60,106 nucleotides of DNA, from positions 1 through 60,106 of IMG/VR virus record IMGVR_UViG_3300046170_000227, one strand, 5' to 3'. The number at the start of each line of letters is the position of its first letter. Position 1 is the first letter of the stretch. The notes beneath the pieces were generated by a model. It searched no databases. It was not told where the DNA came from and worked only from the letters and a program-made list of their open reading frames with translations. This DNA comes from a virus. A program made the position numbers and the translations under genes. Positions 2,099 through 14,290 of this stretch are shown here, piece by piece.

Positions 2099-2554
2099 AT
2101 GGCATTTGTACTCAACGACAGAGTTAAAGAAACATCTACTACGACAGGGACTGGTACGTTCAATTTAGCCGGAGCAGAAGTTGGTTTTGAAACTTTCGTA
2201 TCTGGAATTGGAACTACCAATAATACTTTCTATGCAATATCATTAGATGGAACTGCAGAGTTTGAAGTAGGTATTGGAACTGTAACTGATGCATCACCTG
2301 ATACTTTATCAAGAGACACTATTATTTCTTCGTCAAACTCCGATAACAAAGTAAATTTTTCTGCAGGAACTAAAACTGTATTTTGTACATACCCTGCAAA
2401 ACGTGCGCCGTCAGCAAGTATGACAGCTACAACTTATGTAACAACACATGCTTCAACAATTTCTGATGTTCAAACAATGGACTCAGGAGTTTTAGCAGGA
2501 CCGGTAACGGTTTCAGGTAATGTTACAGTAACAGGAACATTGGTAATAATATAA
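2099..2554 (+). CDS. Putative tail protein
   Basis: 151 residues, start supported by AAAGGA eight bases upstream. The opening MAFVLNDRVKETSTTTGTGTF is typical of a protein family found beside tail fibres in marine phages. The rest has repeated TGTG and SGNVTVTGTL stretches that suggest beta structure. It overlaps the next gene by one base (ATAATGAG). A tail-fibre accessory role is inferred from context. Confidence 0.7.
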   Translation: MAFVLNDRVKETSTTTGTGTFNLAGAEVGFETFVSGIGTTNNTFYAISLDGTAEFEVGIGTVTDASPDTLSRDTIISSSNSDNKVNFSAGTKTVFCTYPAKRAPSASMTATTYVTTHASTISDVQTMDSGVLAGPVTVSGNVTVTGTLVII

Positions 2555-3468
2555 TGAGTCAAATAGAAGTAGATAAAATAATTCCTCAATCAGGAACTTC
2601 AACACAATTAGGTGAATCAGGTGATACGATTACTATTCCCGCAGGTGCAACTATTACTAACAATGGTACTGCAAATGGTTTTGGAAGTGCAGATACTGAA
2701 AAAGTAAAAGTATCTGCTAACGATACAACAGCCGGTTTTTTAAATGGTAAATTAGTTGCAGGTACAAATATATCTTTAACTGAAGGTAATGATGGTGGTA
2801 ATGAAACTCTAACCGCTGCTCTTTCAGGAACAATTGCAACAGCACAAATTGCAGATGATGCAGTAACCTTGGCTAAAATGGCCCCAGGTACAGACGGAAA
2901 TATTATTTCATATGATGCATCTGGTAATCCTGTAGCAGTAGCAACAGGAAGTGCAGGACAAATTTTAACTTCTGCTGGAGCAGGTGCTCCTCCAACTTTT
3001 GAAACTTTAGCTAGTGAAGCTAACACTCCAGCTTTTCAAGTTTTATTAAGTAGTTCTCAATCTGTAAATTCTGGTACAAACACAGTAATTGCTTTTGATA
3101 CTGAAATTTTTGATAGTGATAATGCAGTTTCAAGTGGGGTATTTACTGTTCCATCTGGTAAAGCTGGAAAATATTTTTTTGCAGTTAATGGTGGTATGAA
3201 CACAGGAAATAATATTGAGTATGTTAATCTTTGGATTTCTAAAAATAATCAAACAACCATAGCTACAACTTCTGGCTGGGCAATAGCAATAGAGTATTAT
3301 CATCAAGGTGATGCTGGATCATCAAATCAAATTCAATCTGTCTCTGGTACAATGGATTTAGCAGTCGGAGATAGTGTAAAAATTTATATATTACACAATT
3401 TTGGAAGTAGTAAAGGTACAGCTGATAAAGGTAGATTTACTTTTTCTGGACACAGATTAATAACATAG
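2554..3468 (+). CDS. Tail fibre protein
   Basis: 304 residues. Residues 1-36 (VDKIIPQSGTSTQLGESGDT, then ITIPAGATI) form a fibre N-terminal block that recurs almost intact in the gene at 3800, so it probably anchors the fibre to the virion. The middle carries IATAQIADDAVTLAKMAPGTDG, a common trimeric-fibre shaft motif. The C-terminal ~130 residues look like a C1q/TNF-like beta sandwich (FLLSSSQSVNSGTNTVIAFDTE-like, ending FTFSGHRLI), a frequent receptor-binding head. Expected at the tail tip, exposed to the host surface. Confidence 0.8.
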   Translation: MSQIEVDKIIPQSGTSTQLGESGDTITIPAGATITNNGTANGFGSADTEKVKVSANDTTAGFLNGKLVAGTNISLTEGNDGGNETLTAALSGTIATAQIADDAVTLAKMAPGTDGNIISYDASGNPVAVATGSAGQILTSAGAGAPPTFETLASEANTPAFQVLLSSSQSVNSGTNTVIAFDTEIFDSDNAVSSGVFTVPSGKAGKYFFAVNGGMNTGNNIEYVNLWISKNNQTTIATTSGWAIAIEYYHQGDAGSSNQIQSVSGTMDLAVGDSVKIYILHNFGSSKGTADKGRFTFSGHRLIT

Positions 3469-3476
3469 GATAAATT

Positions 3477-3803
3477 ATGGCACAATTAGACACAAAAATA
3501 AAATTATACGCAGCAGCAAATGGTGTGGCAAACATTAATTTTAGATCAGATGTTATCTTGGTAGATGATGGTGATGGAGTTGTTTATATCCATGAATGGA
3601 ATTTAGATATTGCTCAACCAACTGCTGAACAAATAGCTTCATATGAAACTGCAGCAACAACAGAAGAAGCATTACAAGTAGTTTTAAGTAATAGAGCAAA
3701 AGACTATCCATCTATAAAAGATCAGCTCGACAAAATTTATCATTCAGGAATAGAGGAATGGAAAAAAGTAATTAAAACAACAAAGGATAAGTACCCTAAA
3801 TGA
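3477..3803 (+). CDS. Putative tail assembly protein
   Basis: 108 residues. The N-terminal half reads as a small beta domain (VILVDDGDGVVYIHEWN). The C-terminal half is helical and ends YPSIKDQLDKIYHSGIEEWK, a block seen in small phage proteins related to XkdW and tail assembly chaperones encoded between fibre genes. The stop overlaps the next start (AAATGAGTG). The role as a fibre assembly helper is inferred. Confidence 0.6.
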   Translation: MAQLDTKIKLYAAANGVANINFRSDVILVDDGDGVVYIHEWNLDIAQPTAEQIASYETAATTEEALQVVLSNRAKDYPSIKDQLDKIYHSGIEEWKKVIKTTKDKYPK

Positions 3804-4585
3804 GTGAAGTAAAAGTAAATAAAATTAGTCCAAGGTCCGGGACCGGTGTACAGCTAGGAGATAGTGGAGATACTATAACTATTCCTGCAGGTGCAACACT
3901 AACTGGTACACAGAACATTGCAAACACATCTTTAGTAGGTTCAGGACAAATTACAATTAATGGTACTGCGGTAGCATTAGGTGGATCTATTACTTTAGTT
4001 ACAGAAACAAGACCAACAGTATCAGGTATCAGTCCTTCAGCGATTGAAAATACACAAACAGCAGTTGTTATTACAGGAACTAATTTTGTATCGGTTCCAT
4101 TAGTTACAGCAATCAACTCAACTACCGGTGCACAATTTACAGCGGATGAAGTATCTTTTACATCATCTACAAGTATCACAGCAAAATTTACTATTTCAGT
4201 TGACGCAAGTTACAAATTATATGTAGAGAATCCAGATGGTAATGCAGTTCAAACTGGAGCTATACTAACAGTATCAGATGCACCCGCTTGGCAAACTGCA
4301 GCAGGTACACTAGGTACATTTTCAGGAGCAACAAGTATTTGAACAATAACATTAACAGCAACAAATTCTACAGGGATGGCTGTACAATCAGGAGCATTAC
4401 CTGGTGGAATTACATTGAACAGTGGATCAGGATCTAGTACACTAACAGGTACTGAATCAGGCGCTTCTGCTGATACAACTTTTAACTTTACAATTAGAGC
4501 AACAGATGCTGAAGGTCAAACAGCAGATAGAGCATTTAGTTTAACATTTACATTTGGAGCAAACAACTCTATGAGTTTCAACTAG
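3800..4585 (+). CDS. TIG/Ig-like tail fibre, cassette 1, with in-frame TGA
   Basis: Residues 1-35 repeat the anchor block of the fibre at 2554. Then comes an IPT/TIG-like domain (VSGISPSAIENTQTAVVITG then TNF) and a putative Ig-like region (ALPGGITLNSGSG, FNFTIRATDAEGQTADRAFS). A TGA at 4340-4342 interrupts the frame, but the same frame continues to 4585 and aligns throughout with the paralogue at 6966-8125, so this is probably a consensus error or a recent nonsense change. Other genes here end in TGA, so recoding is unlikely. Restored length is 261 residues. Likely exposed adhesin. Confidence 0.7.
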
Positions 4586-4594
4586 GATAATATT

Positions 4595-5914
4595 ATGGCA
4601 AACAGTTACTTATCACATACAACTTCAACACCTACTAATAGTGATAAAGCTACACTTTCATTTTGGTTAAAAAGATCATTACTATCTTCTGGGAGAGGTG
4701 TATTTGCAGAAGATACCAATGGTACTAATAAATTTGCTTTTATTTTAGGTTCAAATAATACAATAAGTATTTTTCAAGAAACTGGTGGTACAGTTGATAT
4801 TAACTTGGTGACAAATAGAGTATTTAGAGATACTTCAGCATGGTATAATATTGTTGTAGCTTATGATAGTTCACAAGGATCAGCAAGTGATAGAGTAAAG
4901 TTGTATGTAAATGGTTCTCAAGAAACATCATTTAGCACATCAACTTATCCATCTTCAAATGTAGATTTTAGATTTAATAAAAGTGGTATTGCACAAGAAA
5001 TAGGTAGGTATGAGGGTGGTAATTATTTTGATGGTTATTTAAGTCATGTTGCATTCGTAGATGGTCAAGCATTAGCACCAACTGTATTCGGTGAAACAGA
5101 TTCTACATCAGGTATCTGGAAATTTAAACAACCATCTGGTGTTACTTGGGGTACTAATGGTTTTTGGTTAAAATTTGAAAACTCTGGTGCTTTAGGTACA
5201 GATAGTTCTGGTAACTCAAACACATTCACAGTTAATGGTAATGGCAGACAGGCACTTGATACACCATCAAATGTTCATGCTACTGGAAATCCTTTATATG
5301 TTTGGAATTATAATTTAACTCAATCAAATGCAAATCTTTCTTTTGCAGGTTCACAAAACCAATGGCAAGGAGCATCTACTAATATCGCCATATCAAAAGG
5401 TAAATGGTACTATGAAGCAAAATTTACATCTGGTACAGACATAATCAATTGGGGTGTTGGTTTTATGGGGATGGAAGATTACAACCTTACCAATGCTACA
5501 AGAAATTTTGTAGGTTTTTATAACTATGATGGTGGGGAAATTTGGGTTGCAGATGCTTCAAATAGTACTGCTACTACAGCTGATTACGGTACGTTTTCTA
5601 ATGGAGATATTATAGGTATAGCACTTGATTATGATAACACATATCTTTCTGTTTATAAAAATGGGTCAGCTATTGTAACTAATTTTGATTATGGCGCTGT
5701 AGGTACAAGTTCAACTGTCAAAGGAGGAAAATTTATTGCTCCTGTATTCTTTAATTATGGAAGTGGTACTGCGTCAGCAAACTTCGGCAATGGATATTTT
5801 GGCACTACTGCTATAACTTCTGCAGGTTCAAATGGTAATGGATCTTTATTTGAATATGATGTACCATCAGGATACTACGCATTAAATACAAAAAACATTA
5901 ACACTTATGGATAA
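4595..5914 (+). CDS. LamG/SPRY-like tail protein, cassette 1
   Basis: 439 residues. The N-terminal ~200 residues (LSFWLKRS, YNIVVAYDSSQGSASDRVKL, YVNGSQETSF, GYLSHVAFVDGQAL, FGETD) show the pattern of a concanavalin/LamG-like carbohydrate-binding domain. The C-terminal half (GKWYYEAKFTSG, WGVGFMG, GDIIGIALDYDNTYLSVYKNG) looks like a SPRY domain. Both folds bind glycans or proteins, fitting a receptor-binding function at the tail tip. The paralogue is at 8125. Domain calls are by motif, not by search. Confidence 0.8.
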   Translation: MANSYLSHTTSTPTNSDKATLSFWLKRSLLSSGRGVFAEDTNGTNKFAFILGSNNTISIFQETGGTVDINLVTNRVFRDTSAWYNIVVAYDSSQGSASDRVKLYVNGSQETSFSTSTYPSSNVDFRFNKSGIAQEIGRYEGGNYFDGYLSHVAFVDGQALAPTVFGETDSTSGIWKFKQPSGVTWGTNGFWLKFENSGALGTDSSGNSNTFTVNGNGRQALDTPSNVHATGNPLYVWNYNLTQSNANLSFAGSQNQWQGASTNIAISKGKWYYEAKFTSGTDIINWGVGFMGMEDYNLTNATRNFVGFYNYDGGEIWVADASNSTATTADYGTFSNGDIIGIALDYDNTYLSVYKNGSAIVTNFDYGAVGTSSTVKGGKFIAPVFFNYGSGTASANFGNGYFGTTAITSAGSNGNGSLFEYDVPSGYYALNTKNINTYG

Positions 5915-5919
5915 AAATT

Positions 5920-6963
5920 ATGGCTTATAGTTCAATTGTAAAACCTTCTGTTTATTTTAATACTAAACTTTATACAGGTAATGGTACTACAAATACAGCT
6001 ATAACTGGTGTTGGTTTTCAACCGGATTTATCAATTATTAAAGCTAGAGATATGACTTATGACCATAATGTAATGGATGCAGTAAGAGGTTCAACTAAAA
6101 GAGTAGCAACCAATTTAACTGATGCTGAAAGTACACAGGCAGAAATGATTAAATCTTTTGCTTCTGATGGATTTAATTTAGGTGATAATGGTGGAGTTAA
6201 TCAAAATACTAAAACATATGTAGCATGGAACTGGAAAGCAAATGGTGCAGGTTCATCAAACACAGATGGAAGCATAACCTCAACTGTTAGTGCAAATACT
6301 GCAAGTGGTTTCAGTATTGTTAAATATACAGGTACAGGTGCTAATGCTACAGTTGGTCATGGTTTAGGTGCTGTGCCTAGAATGATTATAGCAAAAAGAT
6401 TAACTGATGCTGAAAGTTGGGGAGTTTATAATGTTTCAAATGGTACAAATAAATATATGAAATTAGAAGAAGCAGTTTTAGCAGAAACTGCTACTAGTGT
6501 ATGGAATGATACAGCTCCTACAAGTTCTGTATTTTCATTAGGAACAAGTGGTTTATGTAATGGCTCTAGTAAAGATATGATTGCCTACTGTTTTGCAGAA
6601 AAAAAAGGCTACTCAAAAATTGAAAGCTACACAGGAAATGGCAGTACAGATGGACCATTTATTTATACAGGATTTAAACCTGCTTTTATTTTTAGTAAAA
6701 AAACTAATGCTTCTGGAACTAGTTGGACTATATGGGATAACAAAAGAAGTCCTTTTAATCCTGCTGATAAAATATTACACCCAAATAATACTAATGCAGA
6801 TAATACTGCTGATGATACAGATTTTTTATCTAATGGTTTTAAATTGAGAGCAACAGCAAGTGGTATGAATAATAATGGAGATTCATACATCTACATGGCA
6901 TTTGCAGAAAATCCATTGGTAGCTAATTCAGGAACAGATGGAGTACCGGCAACGGCTAGATAA
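5920..6963 (+). CDS. Phage tail protein (GHGLGAVP type), cassette 1
   Basis: 347 residues. Typical blocks are VYFNTKLYTGNGT, YVAWNWKANGAGSSNTDGSI, GHGLGAVPRMIIAKRL, MIAYCFAEKKGYSKIESYTGNG, GPFIYTGFKPAFI and a C-terminal YIYMAFAENP, ending PATAR. This arrangement is common in fibre clusters of marine phages (I associate it with DUF7483). The paralogue at 9492 keeps all these blocks in order. Likely tail-tip or fibre protein; biochemical role unknown. Confidence 0.75.
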   Translation: MAYSSIVKPSVYFNTKLYTGNGTTNTAITGVGFQPDLSIIKARDMTYDHNVMDAVRGSTKRVATNLTDAESTQAEMIKSFASDGFNLGDNGGVNQNTKTYVAWNWKANGAGSSNTDGSITSTVSANTASGFSIVKYTGTGANATVGHGLGAVPRMIIAKRLTDAESWGVYNVSNGTNKYMKLEEAVLAETATSVWNDTAPTSSVFSLGTSGLCNGSSKDMIAYCFAEKKGYSKIESYTGNGSTDGPFIYTGFKPAFIFSKKTNASGTSWTIWDNKRSPFNPADKILHPNNTNADNTADDTDFLSNGFKLRATASGMNNNGDSYIYMAFAENPLVANSGTDGVPATAR

Positions 6964-6965
6964 TT

Positions 6966-8125
6966 ATGAGTAGTATATTAAAAGTAGATACAATACAGGA
7001 CCAAAACGGTAATCTGATCATCAGTAAAGATTCTGGTGGTGGAGGATTTCTTAGTCCTTATGCATCGTCATCTGCTCCAATAACTTATACTGTAACTGTT
7101 GCATCAAAAACTGCAGCTCACCCTTATAATGGTGTGGGTAGTTCTAACGGTTATTTTATTAATGGTATCGAGTCACCTATTATTGAGATCAAAGGTAATG
7201 ACACATCAAAACCTTATCACTATAAATTTGATCAATCAGATGCATCTAACTCAGGACACCCTTTATGATTTTACAACAACGCTAGTAAGACTACAGCATT
7301 TACAACAGGAGTAACTACTAACTGGTACACCAGGACAAGCTGGTGCTTATACATTAATTGCTGTTGATAGCGATACACCAAATATTTTATACTACCAATG
7401 TTCATCACACGCGAACATGGGTAATCATACTTTCTCAACTTCACCTACAGTTAATACAGGTTTCTTTTTAAAATTACCTGCAGCCGATGGAACGGCAGAT
7501 CAGGTATTAAAAACCAACGGATCAGGTACCTTGTCTTTTGGATCAAGTGTAACTTTTCCAACTATAAGTTCTATTAGTCCAAGTGCTATTGAAAACACAC
7601 AGACAGCAGTAACGGTTACAGGAACTAACTTTCAATCAATACCTACAGTTGATGCAATCAATGCTTCAACCGGTGCAATTACTAACTGCAGACAGTGTTG
7701 CATTTACAAATGCAACAACGATTGTTGCAACGTTTACAATATCGGTAGATGGTACTTATTATTTAAGAGCAGAGAACAACGATGGTTTAGCCGTAAGATC
7801 AACTAATGCATTATTAACTGTATCGGATGCACCTGCATGGACAACTGCTGCAGGTAGTCTAGGAACAGTGGCCGCAACAGGAAGTGTTAACTTTACAGTA
7901 GCTGCAACAAATGCTACAAGTTTTGCTAAGACATCTGGAAGTTTTCCAGGTGGTGTAAGTATTAATGCAAGCACCGGAGTAATATCTGGAACTGAGTCAG
8001 GGTCAAGTGCTACGACTACTTATACATTTACAATAAGAGCAACAGATGCACAGGGCCAAACGGCTGACAGACAGTTTACAATTACAATATCTCACGGAGC
8101 ATCAGGAGGAGGACAATTTAACTAA
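6966..8125 (+). CDS. TIG/Ig-like tail fibre, cassette 2, interrupted
   Basis: It opens MSSILKVDTIQDQNGNLIIS, a common phage fibre start. Three lesions break it: TGA at 7266-7268 (expected basic codon in SGHPL-x-FYNNAS), one extra base near 7321 and one near 7683; both extras make ACTAACT where ACTACT restores the frame. Restored, it is about 385 codons: an N-terminal beta region, SSHANMGNHTFSTSPTVNTG, a TIG-like domain (SSISPSAIENTQTAVTVTG) and an Ig-like C-terminus (FTIRATDAQGQTADRQF), matching cassette 1. Three lesions in one gene suggest poor consensus here. Confidence 0.7.
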
Positions 8126-9492
8126 TGGCTAGTACATATTTAACATACACACAACAATCACCATCTACAGCAGAGGGTCAAAAATTTACTTTATCTATGT
8201 GGGTTAAAAAAACTGCAAATACAGACATGGGTTTGTATGGAAACACCTATTCTAATACACATAGAGGATATATTTATTTTGATGGTAATGATAGATTATC
8301 TTATTATGATTCTAATGGAGTAAATTATACAACAACAAGAGTATTTAGAGATAATAACTCATTTTATCATATTGTAGTTTCAGTAGATACAACACTGTCA
8401 ACATCATCAGATAGAATTAAATTTTATGTTAATGGTCTAAGAGAAACTGTTTTTACTAATAGTTCAGCACCAAATCAAAATGATACATTAAAATTAATGA
8501 ATACTACTAATACTCCGAATATGGGAAGAATGGTAGAGGCAGGAACTTCTTATTATTTTCAAGGTGTCATATCTCATGCTCATTTTACACAGGGTTATAC
8601 TTATGATGCAACACCATTTGGTGAAACAGATAGCACAACTGGAGAATGGAAAATTAAAACTGATGTTACTGGTGTAACTTATGGAACTAATGGTTTTTGG
8701 TGGTTAAAAGATAATATTGCTACAACAGACCATTCACCAAACTCAAACACATTTTCAGTTGGTGGTGGTACACTTACAAAAACAGAAGATAATCCAAGCA
8801 ATGTTTTTGCTACATTAAATAAATTACAAAAACCTTATGTATCTCAAAGTAATACTTTAAGTTTTGGTAATACTCAATACGCAGATAATAATTCAAATTG
8901 GCAAAGAAATTATGGTACGATAGGTGCTACAACTGGAAAATATTTTTATGAGTTTAAATGTTTAAATGATGATGGTAATTCAGGACGTTGCCGTATTGGT
9001 TGGGATAGTATTGATGATATAAATGCTTCTAATGATAATTATTATAGTGGATTAACTTTAGATAGAGCAGGAATATTAAGAGGTGGTGAAAAAGGTTATG
9101 ATGGTTATAGTCCAAATAATGTTCAAATGTCAGCAGCTCATAGTAGTGGTAATTTTAGTTTTACCGCAGGTGATATTCTTGGAATGGGTATTGATATAGA
9201 TAATAATACATTTTCAGTTTATAAAAATGGAAATTTAGAAATTAATGCTTACAGCTATGCTTCTTCAGCTAATTGTAGTATATTAAAATCAAAAGGACAT
9301 TTTATAGCACCATCTGTAAATTGGTATTCTACAAGTGGAGATGTAAATAGTGGTGCTTTTAACTTCGGCAATGGCTACTTCGGAACAACAGCAGTATCTA
9401 GTGCAGGAACTAATGCTAGTAATAATGGAATTTTTGAGTATGATGTACCATCTGGTTACACAGCTTTTTCAACAAAAGGATTAAACTTATAA
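8125..9492 (+). CDS. LamG/SPRY-like tail protein, cassette 2
   Basis: 455 residues, starting by overlapping the previous stop (TAATGG). Same architecture as 4595-5914: LamG-like half (FTLSMWVKKT, FYHIVVSVDTTLSTSSDRIK, FYVNGLRETVF, FGETDSTTGEWK) and SPRY-like half (GKYFYEFKCLND, GDILGMGIDIDNNTFSVYKNG, FNFGNGYFGTTAVSSAGTNA). Sequence is clearly diverged from cassette 1, so this is an old duplication or two co-maintained specificities. Probably surface-exposed glycan-binding tail protein. Confidence 0.8.
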   Translation: MASTYLTYTQQSPSTAEGQKFTLSMWVKKTANTDMGLYGNTYSNTHRGYIYFDGNDRLSYYDSNGVNYTTTRVFRDNNSFYHIVVSVDTTLSTSSDRIKFYVNGLRETVFTNSSAPNQNDTLKLMNTTNTPNMGRMVEAGTSYYFQGVISHAHFTQGYTYDATPFGETDSTTGEWKIKTDVTGVTYGTNGFWWLKDNIATTDHSPNSNTFSVGGGTLTKTEDNPSNVFATLNKLQKPYVSQSNTLSFGNTQYADNNSNWQRNYGTIGATTGKYFYEFKCLNDDGNSGRCRIGWDSIDDINASNDNYYSGLTLDRAGILRGGEKGYDGYSPNNVQMSAAHSSGNFSFTAGDILGMGIDIDNNTFSVYKNGNLEINAYSYASSANCSILKSKGHFIAPSVNWYSTSGDVNSGAFNFGNGYFGTTAVSSAGTNASNNGIFEYDVPSGYTAFSTKGLNL

Positions 9493-10517
9493 TGGCTTAC
9501 ACAACAATTAATAAATCTACAGATTACTTTAATACTAAACTTTGGACAGGTAATGGCTCTACACAAAATATAACAGGTGTTAATCATACACCAGATTTTG
9601 TATGGATAAAGAAACGAACTGATGCTGATGGTGCAAGAATATTTGATACTGTTAGAGGTGCAACAAAAGGTATTTTTACCAATTCTACTGCAGCAGAAAC
9701 TACTGTTACAAGTGAGTTAAGTGCATTTGGTTCTGATGGTTATACATTAGGTGCATCTGATGCTGTTAATGGAAATTCAAAAAATTATGTAGGTTGGAAC
9801 TGGAAAGCAAATGGTCAAGGTTCATCAAATACAGATGGTTCAATAAACACTACATACACTTCTGTTAATACAACAGCAGGTTTTTCAATATGTAAATGGA
9901 CAGGAACAGGAAGTGCAGGAACTATTGGTCATGGTTTAGGTGCTGTACCTAAAATGATAATTATTAAAGATTTGTCTAATACTAGAGATTGGTTTGTTTA
10001 TCATGCAAGTGTAGGAAATAATAAAAGATTAAAATTAAATGATACTGTTGCAGAAGGAGCTTCTACTGTATTTAATAGCACAACACCTACTTCTTCTGTT
10101 TTTTCTATAGATGGTTCAGTATATGTAAATAATTCTGGTTCAAATTACATAGCCTACTGCTTTGCAGAAAAAGCTGGTTACAGCAAGTTTGGTTCTTATA
10201 CTGGTAATGGAAATGCAGATGGACCATTTATTTATACAGGATTTAAACCTTCGTTTCTTATGGTTAAAAGAACAGATACTGCAGATACTTGGATTATGTA
10301 TGATAATAAAAGAATTGGTTACAATCCAAATAATTATTTTCTTCAAGCAAATAGTAATGCTGCTGAATCTAGTTCAGATAGATTTGATTTACTAAGTAAT
10401 GGTTTTAAACCAAGATATGATTGGACACCCATAAATGCTTCGGGTGGAACATACATCTACATGGCCTTTGGCCAAAGCATAGTTGGCAGTAATAATATTC
10501 CGGCGACGGCAAGGTAG
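9492..10517 (+). CDS. Phage tail protein (GHGLGAVP type), cassette 2
   Basis: 341 residues, start overlapping the previous stop (ATAATGG). Shares the blocks YFNTKLWTGNGS, YVGWNWKANGQGSSNTDGSI, GHGLGAVPKMIIIKDL, YIAYCFAEKAGYSKFGSYTGNG, GPFIYTGFKPSFLM and YIYMAFGQS with the gene at 5920, in the same order. The C-terminus NNIPATAR matches VPATAR of the first copy. It closes the second fibre cassette. Function inferred as tail-tip or fibre. Confidence 0.75.
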   Translation: MAYTTINKSTDYFNTKLWTGNGSTQNITGVNHTPDFVWIKKRTDADGARIFDTVRGATKGIFTNSTAAETTVTSELSAFGSDGYTLGASDAVNGNSKNYVGWNWKANGQGSSNTDGSINTTYTSVNTTAGFSICKWTGTGSAGTIGHGLGAVPKMIIIKDLSNTRDWFVYHASVGNNKRLKLNDTVAEGASTVFNSTTPTSSVFSIDGSVYVNNSGSNYIAYCFAEKAGYSKFGSYTGNGNADGPFIYTGFKPSFLMVKRTDTADTWIMYDNKRIGYNPNNYFLQANSNAAESSSDRFDLLSNGFKPRYDWTPINASGGTYIYMAFGQSIVGSNNIPATAR

Positions 10518-10523
10518 CCCGCC

Positions 10524-11357
10524 ATGTACTTTGGCGCAACACCTTTCGCCTCAGCTGCATTTTCAGATGTAGGCTTTAACCCTAATGCATTCGTCAATGT
10601 CCTTGGATCAAGGATCAACGAATCTACAGGCAACCCAACAATCATTGCAAACGCTTTAGTATTACCAACAGGTAATAGATTAAATACTACAATTGGTAAT
10701 GTTGAAATTAATATTAATCAAACCGTATCTCCAACAGGTCAAAGATTAAATTTCTCTACAGGTTCTGTTACAGTTACCGCAGCAGCTAACTTTGGTGTTA
10801 CTGGGAATGGTTATGAAATTGATACGGGAATTGCTAAAGCTATTGATGTAGTAGGTGTATCCGGTAACAGATTAAATCTTGATACAAGTTCTGTCACAAC
10901 TATTGGTAAAGCAAAAATCATTCCAACAGGATCAAGAATCAATGAGGCTACTGGTACAGTTACACTTGCATTTAAATACAATGTAACAGGATCAAGAATT
11001 AATGAGGCTACCGGTACAGTTACAACGACTGCAGCAGCAGGAGTCTTGCCTCAGGGATCACGGATCAATGAATCTACAGGAGAAGTTACAATTGTTGCAG
11101 GAGCAACTATTACACCTACAGGAAGTGGTATTGAAATCGCTATTGGAAATGCTACAACCAAAGCTAACGCAACAGCTATTGTTACAACTAATAGACAAAA
11201 CTTATCTACAGGAACAGTAACTATTAAAGCTAAAGCTAAAGTCTTACCAACAGGTGTAGGATTAGAAGTAGCGGTACCTACTTCTATTAACATTAAACAA
11301 TGGGACGGTGTAGTACCAGGCGTCTCACAAACTTGGACAAGGATTCAAACACCGTAA
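10524..11357 (+). CDS. Repeat-rich tail protein (PTGxRxN repeats)
   Basis: 277 residues. After MYFGATPFASAAFSDVG it is built from about ten units of ~21 residues with the consensus PTGxRxNxxTGxVTI (for example TGNRLNTTIGNV, TGSRINEATGTVT twice, QGSRINESTGEVT). Such regular units suggest a beta-solenoid or stacked beta shaft. The C-terminus ends QWDGVVPGVSQTWTRIQTP. The start and the C-terminal GVxQxW block recur in the short paralogue at 11357. Likely fibre shaft or tail-tip protein. GGATCAN doublets occur at 10605 and 11055 inside it. Confidence 0.7.
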   Translation: MYFGATPFASAAFSDVGFNPNAFVNVLGSRINESTGNPTIIANALVLPTGNRLNTTIGNVEININQTVSPTGQRLNFSTGSVTVTAAANFGVTGNGYEIDTGIAKAIDVVGVSGNRLNLDTSSVTTIGKAKIIPTGSRINEATGTVTLAFKYNVTGSRINEATGTVTTTAAAGVLPQGSRINESTGEVTIVAGATITPTGSGIEIAIGNATTKANATAIVTTNRQNLSTGTVTIKAKAKVLPTGVGLEVAVPTSINIKQWDGVVPGVSQTWTRIQTP

Positions 11358-11605
11358 TGTTTTTTGGAGCAACACCTTTCGCATCAACTACTTTTGCCGG
11401 AGTCGGTATACAGAATATCACTGTATTAGCTAATGGTAATAGATTAAATATAGCAATAGGTAATACAACAGTTGATCTAGTGACTACAGTAAACGTTACA
11501 GGACAACAATTTAACCTTGCAAATAACCCTGTAAGTGTGATATCATGGAACCCAATACCACCAGGAGTAAATCAAGTTTGGGTCCCTATAGACCCAGACG
11601 CATAG
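11357..11605 (+). CDS. Short paralogue of the PTGxRxN repeat protein
   Basis: 82 residues from ATG 11357, overlapping the previous stop (GTAATG). It opens MFFGATPFASTTFAGVG, nearly the same as the 10524 protein, has two repeat units (NGNRLNIAIGNTTV, TGQQFNLANNPVSV) and ends PPGVNQVWVPIDPDA. It looks like a minimal version of the same repeat protein, perhaps capping or length-varying. Function unknown. Confidence 0.7.
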   Translation: MFFGATPFASTTFAGVGIQNITVLANGNRLNIAIGNTTVDLVTTVNVTGQQFNLANNPVSVISWNPIPPGVNQVWVPIDPDA

Positions 11606-11612
11606 GAGAATT

Positions 11613-12332
11613 ATGGCATCAAGTACATCAACAGACTTAAAACTAGAACTCATAACAACAGGTGAAAAATCTGGTACATGGGGAACTATTACTAATACAA
11701 ACTTACAAATTTTAGAACAAGCAGCTAGTGGTTATCTATCACTTGCAGTAGGTGGAGCGGACGTTGCTTTATCTTTAGCTAATCATGCTACAGCAAACGG
11801 TAAAAATTTATACTACAAACTAACAGGAACTTTAACAGCAGCAAGAACAGTTACTATGCCGGATGGCGCTGAAAGAGTATTTATTATAGAAGATGCAACA
11901 GCAAGATCTTCTTCTAATTATACATTAACAGTTAAAACAGTTTCAGGAACAGGTGTTACTTTACCTGTAGGATCAACAACTATTTTATATTCTGATGGTA
12001 CAAACGTTACAGGAAAATTACAGACAAAAGGATACTACACACCACCTTCTACTTATACAGCAGTTAACGGTGATCAATTATTAATAAACACATCTGGAAG
12101 TGGTATTGGTACAGCAGTTACAATTAACTTACCAGCATCCCCTGCAATAGGTAATGAAGTACATTTTATAGACAGTGGTAATGCTTTTGCATCTAACAAT
12201 TTAACAATCGGTAGAAACAGTTCTAATATTTTAGGTGCCGCTTCTAATTTAGTGGTTAATGCTAATGGTGCTGCATTTACTTTAGTGTATGTTAATGCAA
12301 CTAGAGGCTGGATTTATAAAGATAACATATAG
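11613..12332 (+). CDS. Tail fibre-associated protein
   Basis: 239 residues, start with AGGAGAATT upstream. The opening SSTSTDLKLELITTGEKSGT then WGTITNTNLQILEQA is a block widely seen in phage fibre clusters. The remainder is beta-rich with a C-terminal RGWIYKDNI. No enzymatic motif seen. It lies between the repeat proteins and the tail-tube-like gene. Virion location is inferred. Confidence 0.75.
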   Translation: MASSTSTDLKLELITTGEKSGTWGTITNTNLQILEQAASGYLSLAVGGADVALSLANHATANGKNLYYKLTGTLTAARTVTMPDGAERVFIIEDATARSSSNYTLTVKTVSGTGVTLPVGSTTILYSDGTNVTGKLQTKGYYTPPSTYTAVNGDQLLINTSGSGIGTAVTINLPASPAIGNEVHFIDSGNAFASNNLTIGRNSSNILGAASNLVVNANGAAFTLVYVNATRGWIYKDNI

Positions 12333-12343
12333 GAGCATGGACC

Positions 12344-14290
12344 ATGGCTCTAATTGATTTTAAAGTCTTACCAGGAATAGACAAACAAGATACTGCATCT
12401 GGTGCTGAAAACAGATGGATTGATTGTGATAACACAAGGTTTAGATATGGACTACCTGAAAAAGTAGGTGGTTGGTCATCATTAGTTACAGATACAATAG
12501 TAGGTGTTGCAAGACGTCAGTTTGCTTTTGTAGATCTAGATGGAAATAGATATATTGCAATCGGTACAGATAAATTTTTACTTATATATTTTGAAGGTCA
12601 GTTATATGACATTACACCTTTAAAAACTACACTAGCTTCTTGCACCATTGCAACAGTTAACAACTCAGCTGTTTGTTCTATAACAAAATCAAATCATGGC
12701 CTAAGTGCAGGGGACATTATATTATTAGATAATGTAACTTTACCAAGTAGTACAGGTTATCAAAACTCTGATTTTGAAGATAAATTATTTCAAGTAACAA
12801 GTATTACAAGTACAAGTGTATTTACAATTACACAAAGCTCTAATGCAACAGCAACTGTTTCAACAGGTGGTAGTTTAGAAGTTAAACCTTACGAACAAGT
12901 GGGTCCTGCAGAACAATCTTATGGTTATGGTTGGGGTATTGATACTTGGAGTAGTGGAGCATGGGGAGAAGCAGCTTCTGCATCTGACGTATCACTTGAA
13001 CCCGGGTTATGGTCATTAAGTAATTTTGGTCAGGTACTAGTTGCAACAATTGCAAATGGAAAAACTTTTACATGGGACGCTGGTATTGCTGCAAGATTAA
13101 CAACTAGATCATCTACATCAACTTCAGGTTTTTCTACATCAGCTAATCCAACAGCAACTAGAGTTACACTAGTATCACCTACAACACGTCACTTAATTCA
13201 TTTAGGTACTGAAACAACTATTGGAGATACATCAACACAAGACGATATGTTTATAAGATTCTCGGACCAAGAAGATATAAATGATTATACACCTACTGCA
13301 ATTAATTCAGCAGGTTCACAAAGACTACAAGATGGTACAAAAATTATGGGTTCATTAAAAGCAAAAGAAACAATTTTGGTTTGGACCGACAATGCTTTGT
13401 ATACAATGAAATTTATTGGTGCACCTTTTACATTTGGTTTTGAACAAGTTGGTACTAACTGTGGATTGATTGGTAAAAATGCAGCTGTTGAAATAGATGG
13501 TGCTGCGTTTTGGATGAGCCCTAATGGTTTCTTTATGTTTGATGGTACAGTTAAATCACTACCTTGTTCTGTTGAAGATTATGTTTATGACCAAGCAGAT
13601 ACTACAAAAGGTCAACAAATTTGTGCTGGTATAAATAATTTATTTACAGAAGTAACTTGGTATTATCCATCAACTAGTTCTGATTATAATGATCAGTATG
13701 TGGTATTTAATTATGGAGAACCTATGAAAGGTGGTGTTTGGTATATAGGTACAGAAGCAAGAACATCTTGGATTGATGCTAGTGTATATCCTAAACCATC
13801 GGCTACTAAATTTAGTGACTCAGCAACAGGTACTTTTCCTGTGATAGTAGGTCAATCAGGTTTAGGTCAAACAACATTATTTGAACACGAAGTAGGAACA
13901 GATCAAGTTAATCCTAATGGTAGTACAACAACAGTTACATCATTTGTAAAATCATATGACTTTGATCTACAAGCAAAACAAAAAGATGCACAAGGTAAAT
14001 CAAGTGGTCCTACAATAGCGGGTGAAGTATTTTTAGCTATGAGAAGATTTGTACCAGATTTTAAAGACTTACAAGGTAATGCAAAAGTAACCCTTGCTGT
14101 TAAACGTTATCCACAACAATCAGAGACAACAACAGCTTTAAGTCCTTTTACAGTTAGCTCAAGCACTGAAAAAAAAGATACTAGAGCTAGAGGTAGATTT
14201 GTTAATATTAAAATAGAAAATACAGACGTTAGTGAGTCTTGGAGATTTGGAACTTTAAGAATAGATGTACAACCGGATGGTAAAAGATAA
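12344..14290 (+). CDS. Tail tube / stabilization protein (P22 gp10-like)
   Basis: 648 residues. The opening LIDFKVLPGIDKQDTASGAE then NRWIDCDNTRFRYGLPEKVGGW is typical of large podovirus tail proteins related to P22 gp10 and functionally to T7 gp12. Further blocks are FVDLDGNRYIAIGTD, FIRFSDQEDIND and AFWMSPNGFFMFDG. The last residues (ESWRFGTLRIDVQPDGKR) end in an overlap with the next start. It likely forms the tail hub under the adaptor. Assignment by recognition of blocks and by position. Confidence 0.7.
   Translation: MALIDFKVLPGIDKQDTASGAENRWIDCDNTRFRYGLPEKVGGWSSLVTDTIVGVARRQFAFVDLDGNRYIAIGTDKFLLIYFEGQLYDITPLKTTLASCTIATVNNSAVCSITKSNHGLSAGDIILLDNVTLPSSTGYQNSDFEDKLFQVTSITSTSVFTITQSSNATATVSTGGSLEVKPYEQVGPAEQSYGYGWGIDTWSSGAWGEAASASDVSLEPGLWSLSNFGQVLVATIANGKTFTWDAGIAARLTTRSSTSTSGFSTSANPTATRVTLVSPTTRHLIHLGTETTIGDTSTQDDMFIRFSDQEDINDYTPTAINSAGSQRLQDGTKIMGSLKAKETILVWTDNALYTMKFIGAPFTFGFEQVGTNCGLIGKNAAVEIDGAAFWMSPNGFFMFDGTVKSLPCSVEDYVYDQADTTKGQQICAGINNLFTEVTWYYPSTSSDYNDQYVVFNYGEPMKGGVWYIGTEARTSWIDASVYPKPSATKFSDSATGTFPVIVGQSGLGQTTLFEHEVGTDQVNPNGSTTTVTSFVKSYDFDLQAKQKDAQGKSSGPTIAGEVFLAMRRFVPDFKDLQGNAKVTLAVKRYPQQSETTTALSPFTVSSSTEKKDTRARGRFVNIKIENTDVSESWRFGTLRIDVQPDGKR

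Follow-up and report, generated by a model that had tools for sequence, protein, structure and literature searches.

A probable multi-slot receptor-binding array with combinatorial lectin exchange in an HTVC023P-type pelagiphage

A tandem duplication of a three-gene receptor-binding cassette was described in the first-pass annotation of a virus sequence, which raises the question of whether the two sets arose by duplication in this phage and of what two different adhesin sets would do. The analysed stretch (the window) comprises an entire IMG/VR virus record of 60 kb. Two tandem three-gene cassettes were confirmed at 3800-6963 and 6966-10517, bounded by the genes 2099-2554 (left) and 10524-11357 (right), and in both copies a TIG/He_PIG adaptor is followed by a protein with LamG (pentraxin-fold) and SPRY domains and then by a DUF7483 protein. 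The features of the locus are the following:

2099..2554, + strand: left border gene of the array, 151 aa, 79-95% conserved in near relatives
2554..3468, + strand: slot 0 gene, with adaptor-type N-terminus MSQIEVDKIIPQSGT and a non-cassette head, C1q/TNF-like by eye only
3477..3803, + strand: XkdW-like small protein, 108 aa (PF09636, E 1.3e-15)
3800..4585, + strand: slot A adaptor, TIG/He_PIG, with an in-frame TGA at 4340-4342, intact in relatives
4595..5914, + strand: slot A LamG-SPRY protein, 439 aa
5920..6963, + strand: slot A DUF7483 protein, 347 aa
6966..8125, + strand: slot B adaptor, TIG/He_PIG, broken (TGA and frameshifts), about 386 aa in relatives
8125..9492, + strand: slot B LamG-SPRY protein, 455 aa, pentraxin/LamG fold in residues 1-227 and SPRY in 227-455
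8191..8544, + strand: slot B exchangeable LamG module, aa 23-140
8572..8802, + strand: slot B slot-locked scaffold segment, aa 150-226
8842..9339, + strand: slot B exchangeable SPRY module, aa 240-405
9358..9489, + strand: slot B C-terminal end of the LamG-SPRY protein, slot-locked, aa 412-455
9492..10517, + strand: slot B DUF7483 protein, 341 aa, with a freely exchanged core between slot-locked ends of ~20 aa
10524..11357, + strand: right border gene of the array

The same gene order and domains were found in both copies, as first annotated, with scores above the cut-offs for DUF7483 (PF24299; 418.8 and 409.4 bits, cut-off 27), SPRY (PF00622; 28.9 and 34.5 bits, cut-off 26.3) and He_PIG (PF05345; 46 bits in the slot B adaptor fragment, cut-off 24). 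TIG (PF01833) reached 20.0 bits in a window fragment against a cut-off of 20.9, and 27.3 bits in the slot 0 adaptor of the relative L004, and PF13385 matched 30 of the 56 members of the LamG-SPRY family, the slot B protein of the window not being among them. In the predicted structure of the LamG-SPRY protein (pLDDT 82), residues 1-227 matched the fold of the Bacteroides carbohydrate-binding protein 4dqa (Z 19.3, 187 aligned, rmsd 2.5) and also pentraxins, and residues 227-455 matched the SPRY domain of Ash2L (Z 19.2, 165 aligned, rmsd 2.1). The DUF7483 model was all-beta (pLDDT 91.5), with three internal repeats of about 100 aa in both 5920-6963 and 9492-10517 (hhalign, probability 97.8-98.0); no structure in the PDB resembled this fold convincingly (highest Z 5.8; Foldseek E 6e-4 at best, TM 0.24-0.30), and no published description of DUF7483 was found in the literature search. 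A sequence match of DUF7483 to CanA (E 0.008) was also observed, and a DUF7483 protein of the phage Greip (gp2, L289 478-1548) is labelled 'SprT-like protease' in GenBank, likely a misannotation. With the Gp77 model of a fibre-tail adaptor, the adaptors gave weak matches (E 0.0016-0.005) that were below the cut-off. The PHROG labels found were 'virion structural protein' and 'tail fiber protein', and one PHROG 19943 chain, with the former label, joins LamG-SPRY and DUF7483, which supports the assignment of both proteins as putative parts of one fibre.

Both copies keep these blocks in clearly diverged form, with 41% amino acid identity over 425 positions between the LamG-SPRY proteins and 54% over 340 positions between the DUF7483 proteins. 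At the DNA level the DUF7483 genes were 67% identical and the TIG regions 65%, with a best E value of 6e-75, so that the likeness is not due to chance. A recent duplication was rejected because of the identities of 41-54% and the slot-specific adaptors. The tandem had been read as a duplication event in this phage, but the position-specific adaptors and scaffold segments described below point to an old, ordered array. The whole region is probably a multi-slot receptor-binding array with combinatorial lectin exchange in an HTVC023P-type pelagiphage, a reading in which sequence comparison gives us good, though not full, confidence.

The fibre (adaptor) genes had been taken as intact, but both are broken as read. 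In the slot A adaptor (3800) the TGA at 4340-4342 is followed by an open stretch in the same frame to 4585. The slot B adaptor (6966) contains a TGA at 7266-7268 and frameshifts near 7320 and 7680, the open frames 6966-7268, 7417-7806 and 7649-8125 being pieces of one gene that ends at 8125. Another frameshift was found near 1818 in the tail-region gene 1647-2079, which is unrelated to the adaptors and intact in relatives. These two TGA codons and three frameshifts, in three strongly conserved genes (1647, 3800 and 6966), are private to this contig: open frames of relatives cross the lesion sites in 46 aligned proteins at 4340, 26 at 7266 and 71 at 1818, and the adaptors read out in same-backbone relatives are single ORFs. 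Recoding of TGA was rejected, as relatives read ordinary Gly or Leu at these positions and frameshifts coexist with the stops. Since both adaptors are broken in this contig, neither set could assemble as read. If the breaks were genuine, the genome would be a defective variant that has lost both sets, which is compatible with a multi-slot array and is suggested by the clear lesions in the adaptors themselves (two TGA and two frameshifts). We consider this unlikely, because the joint loss of both adaptors while all the other cassette genes are intact, with open frames for the LamG-SPRY and DUF7483 proteins, is not expected in a living phage, and because of the further frameshift in gene 1647-2079 and the intact relatives spanning the lesions. 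The lesions would seem to resemble assembly or sequencing errors more than biology. Degradation of one cassette in relatives, which the first-pass annotation had named as evidence against its proposal, was not found, as relatives keep both adaptors intact.

The portal protein showed 66% amino acid identity to that of HTVC027P, 63% to 023Pt_psg01 and 52% to HTVC023P, and the tail protein 12344-14290 was 66.6% identical to that of 023Pt_psg01; because of these relationships the phage was assigned to the HTVC023P type, whose isolates infect Ca. Pelagibacter HTCC1062. Relatives of this type hold from zero to three cassettes at the locus. Among the 20 loci with both anchors, several of which belong to the same contig, three cassettes were found in 5, two in 10, one in 1 and none in 4, so that two complete, diverged adhesin sets, as first described, are typical of the group. 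Many pelagiphages carry one cassette. The isolates HTVC103P and HTVC104P carry two complete TIG/LamG-SPRY/DUF7483 cassettes each in tandem order (gp69-68-67 and gp64-63-62 in HTVC103P; PMC8528129), on an unrelated backbone; in HTVC103P, bar one weak local hit, the cassette genes alone match the window. A difference in HTVC103P is the Gly-rich adhesin-like gene (gp66, L114 14636-15961) located between the two cassettes, which are annotated as hypothetical and are not discussed in the accessible text of PMC8528129. Judged from these sequences, the tandem is neither recent nor unique to this phage.

A fixed slot order, 0, A and B, was observed in relatives (187 loci with backbone genes). Slot 0 lies directly after 2099-2554 and has the N-terminus MSxxEVDKIIPQSGT, and the two adaptors of the window differ in their N-terminal anchors, MSEVKVNKISPRSGT in slot A and MSSILKVDTIQDQNG in slot B (about 386 aa). 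In the window, slot 0 is a third slot upstream of the cassettes and is filled by 2554-3468, with a slot 0 N-terminus and another head, for which no Pfam/HMM match to C1q was obtained. At this locus, the isolates HTVC023P and 023Pt_psg01 have Gly_rich_2 heads attached to N-termini of the slot 0 and slot A types. Slot 0 of the window and the heads of these isolates therefore indicate that the N-terminus goes with the slot and that the head is exchangeable. Cultured HTVC023P-type phages contain three to four tandem Gly-rich adhesins at this locus, some of them with slot N-termini (L280 5787-11938, which corresponds to HTVC023P gp58-62; L278 7472-11679). A domain is also common to 11613-12332 and other slot 0 heads, and in the region 10524-11605 the right border gene is composed of GSRINESTGTVTI-type repeats, a further short gene related to it being present at 11300-11605. 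The median identity of the first 60 aa of the adaptors was 64-78% within slots versus 25-51% between slots, with labels partly derived from the N-terminus; as slots were labelled by adaptor N-terminus and position, the slot specificity of the adaptors (96%) is partly circular. Slot tests on the LamG-SPRY and DUF7483 genes are free of that circularity.

Column-wise slot information was computed over 88 LamG-SPRY and 78 DUF7483 proteins. It was concentrated in aa ~150-226 and 412-455 of the LamG-SPRY protein and in the first and last ~20 aa of the DUF7483 protein, and it was near zero in LamG (23-140), SPRY (240-405) and the DUF7483 core. The locked middle segment spans the latter half of the LamG domain as far as its junction with SPRY. 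The nearest neighbour came from the same slot (chance 33%) in 92% of cases for the LamG-SPRY middle, 77% for its end and 69% and 83% for the two DUF7483 ends, versus 48% for LamG, 51% for SPRY and 36% for the DUF7483 core. On FastTree trees, slot changes numbered 7 for the middle segment (shuffled 41, sd 2.3), 35 for LamG (41, sd 2.7), 42 for SPRY (41, sd 2.6) and 30 for the DUF7483 core (37, sd 2.4). The adaptors, the LamG-SPRY middle and end and both DUF7483 ends are slot-specific. The slot A sets of the window and of L006 were 97% identical in LamG, 90% in the middle segment, 28% in SPRY and 95% in the SPRY end, with 53% in the DUF7483 core and 92% in the DUF7483 end; slot 0 of L124 and L004 gave 31% in LamG, 97% in SPRY and 48% in the DUF7483 core. 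Between slots, identity reached 76% for SPRY (L196 A/L197 0, with 51% in the middle segment) and 67% for the DUF7483 core (L006 A/window B). Cross-slot LamG identity never exceeded 52%, so that LamG exchange is visible only within a slot or between phages. The LamG tip, the SPRY tip and the DUF7483 core are exchanged separately.

A rearranged locus was found in HTVC200P (L116, MH598801, 9466-15020), in which one adaptor is followed by a LamG-SPRY gene (gp35) lacking the C-terminal ~38 aa and an inverted DUF7483 gene (gp36); further on, the end of the adaptor and the start of LamG-SPRY occur once more, ahead of a LamG-SPRY/DUF7483 pair that is intact. The repeated adaptor end/LamG-SPRY start forms a 168-nt direct repeat (98%), and the LamG-SPRY end/DUF7483 start lies in an inverted repeat of 58 nt (95%). 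Both repeats fall exactly at slot-locked junctions, as expected if these junctions are recombination sites, although this was seen in one genome. The locus may represent an intermediate of shuffling or a segment able to invert. The two pairs behind one adaptor, with one inverted DUF7483, one truncated LamG-SPRY and repeats at the junctions, would also favour a reading in which only one set is displayed and the other holds alternative tips for recombination. For the present locus such a silent store appears quite improbable, as HTVC023P-type relatives keep a complete slot-specific adaptor and uninterrupted genes in each slot, for which a silent store would have no use.

To guard against chimeric metagenome contigs, the comparison was repeated on isolates (15 cultured phages, 17 cassettes). 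In the pair Skadi-4/HTVC031P, identity was 97% in LamG, 34% in SPRY (background level) and 52% in the DUF7483 core, with DNA identity of about 95-99% across the shared LamG module and 32-65% in the adjoining SPRY. HTVC011P and Greip were 39% identical in LamG, 88% in SPRY and 49% in the DUF7483 core, and HTVC048P was 89% identical to slot B of L151 in SPRY. According to taxonomy lines and the accessible text of PMC10504331, the Skadi-4/HTVC031P and HTVC011P/Greip pairs join different phage groups, Autographiviridae and HTVC010P-type phages, and their near-identical modules therefore indicate recent movement between them. The tip modules are very diverse (median identity 29-46%) and old signal may be saturated, which would allow for vertical evolution of each slot without exchange, the tips having diverged too fast to keep slot history. 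There is very little probability for this, in view of the abrupt steps from 97% to 28% inside one gene and back to 95% at its end and of the near-identical single modules in isolates of different phage families; the pairs named above already contradict it for LamG, for SPRY and for the cores of DUF7483. The proposal that one cassette serves as a recombination reservoir holds in a modified form, in which exchange of lectin modules takes place inside a slot, between slots (for SPRY and DUF7483) and between phage families. A tandem or mosaic made by metagenome assembly is scarcely credible, since the genomes of two isolates and numerous independent contigs also contain cassettes in tandem and pure isolates show module mosaics, which refutes it for the architecture, but it is still likely for this contig's five private lesions, which fall in strain-conserved genes (1647, 3800 and 6966) where mixed-strain assembly errors are expected. 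Part of the mosaicism of metagenome contigs could also be assembly chimerism, and the isolate pairs argue against it as the general cause.

Multi-receptor-binding-protein arrays are already known from Ackermannviridae (PMC11414711), as are hypervariable host-recognition genes from marine phages, as far as the accessible texts of PMC3909814 and PMC10504331 describe them. The tail-spike complex of Ackermannviridae (TSP1-4) also consists of adjacent receptor-binding genes with conserved position-specific N-termini and variable C-terminal binding parts, and its N-terminal similarity is thought to guide recombination (PMC11414711); position-specific conserved N-termini with variable binding parts were equally found here. 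However, the Ackermannviridae proteins are single-chain tail spikes linked by gp10-like XD domains, whereas the podovirus-type phage studied here has sets of three genes in which three lectin modules are exchanged separately, and the Pfam sequence profiles matched by the adaptors include no XD (T4 gp10-like) domain. In marine phages, pelagiphage relatives included, genes for host recognition (lectin-like, C1q-like, tail fibre) rank with the most variable ones (Mizuno 2014, PMC3909814), a likeness to the present locus; the metaviromic islands in the accessible text are described as under-recruiting genes, with no slots, three-gene unit or module-wise or inter-family exchange. In Polarivirus skadi, too, a structural protein with a lectin domain is encoded in a hypervariable region associated with the arms race (PMC10504331), but the phage has only one LamG-SPRY/DUF7483 pair, versus several sets here, and neither module boundaries nor sharing with Autographiviridae are described in the accessible text. 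In literature searched mostly outside subscription journals, no account was found that describes slots, locked segments or module-by-module exchange between families for this cassette.

In the multi-slot array proposed here, each slot opens with a TIG/He_PIG adaptor whose slot-specific N-terminus probably docks at a fixed site of the short tail, and the LamG-SPRY double lectin and the DUF7483 protein behind it would probably form the distal binding part. From fold, position and variation pattern we infer display on the virion, possibly simultaneous, as well as carbohydrate binding and an effect on host range; the binding of two hosts or two glycans, as first suggested, is plausible. The slot-locked stretches would keep assembly specific and supply homologous sequence for recombination, and the three tip modules of each slot (LamG, SPRY and DUF7483 core) are replaced independently, probably from a pool common to several SAR11 phage families, so that new combinations of surface-binding sites may arise without new fibres. 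A diversity-generating retroelement was rejected as the diversifier, as no reverse transcriptase (PF00078) match was obtained in the 60-kb record, which is possibly incomplete.

More broadly, SAR11 phages of several families may draw on a single common pool of small lectin modules (LamG, SPRY, DUF7483 core), each of which enters slot-specific frames by its own recombination. A three-slot virion could then present as many as nine binding sites, each replaceable on its own, and no enzyme dedicated to diversification was found; we regard the case for this generalisation as evenly balanced. Tip exchange of the kind proposed for this locus would let the virus keep altering which surfaces it can grab. 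The module map indicates the pieces of 120-290 residues that are expected to set specificity, and the prediction is that a single piece, and not the whole fibre, would decide the surface recognised, which Skadi-4/HTVC031P and HTVC011P/Greip, with exactly one shared module each, make directly testable.
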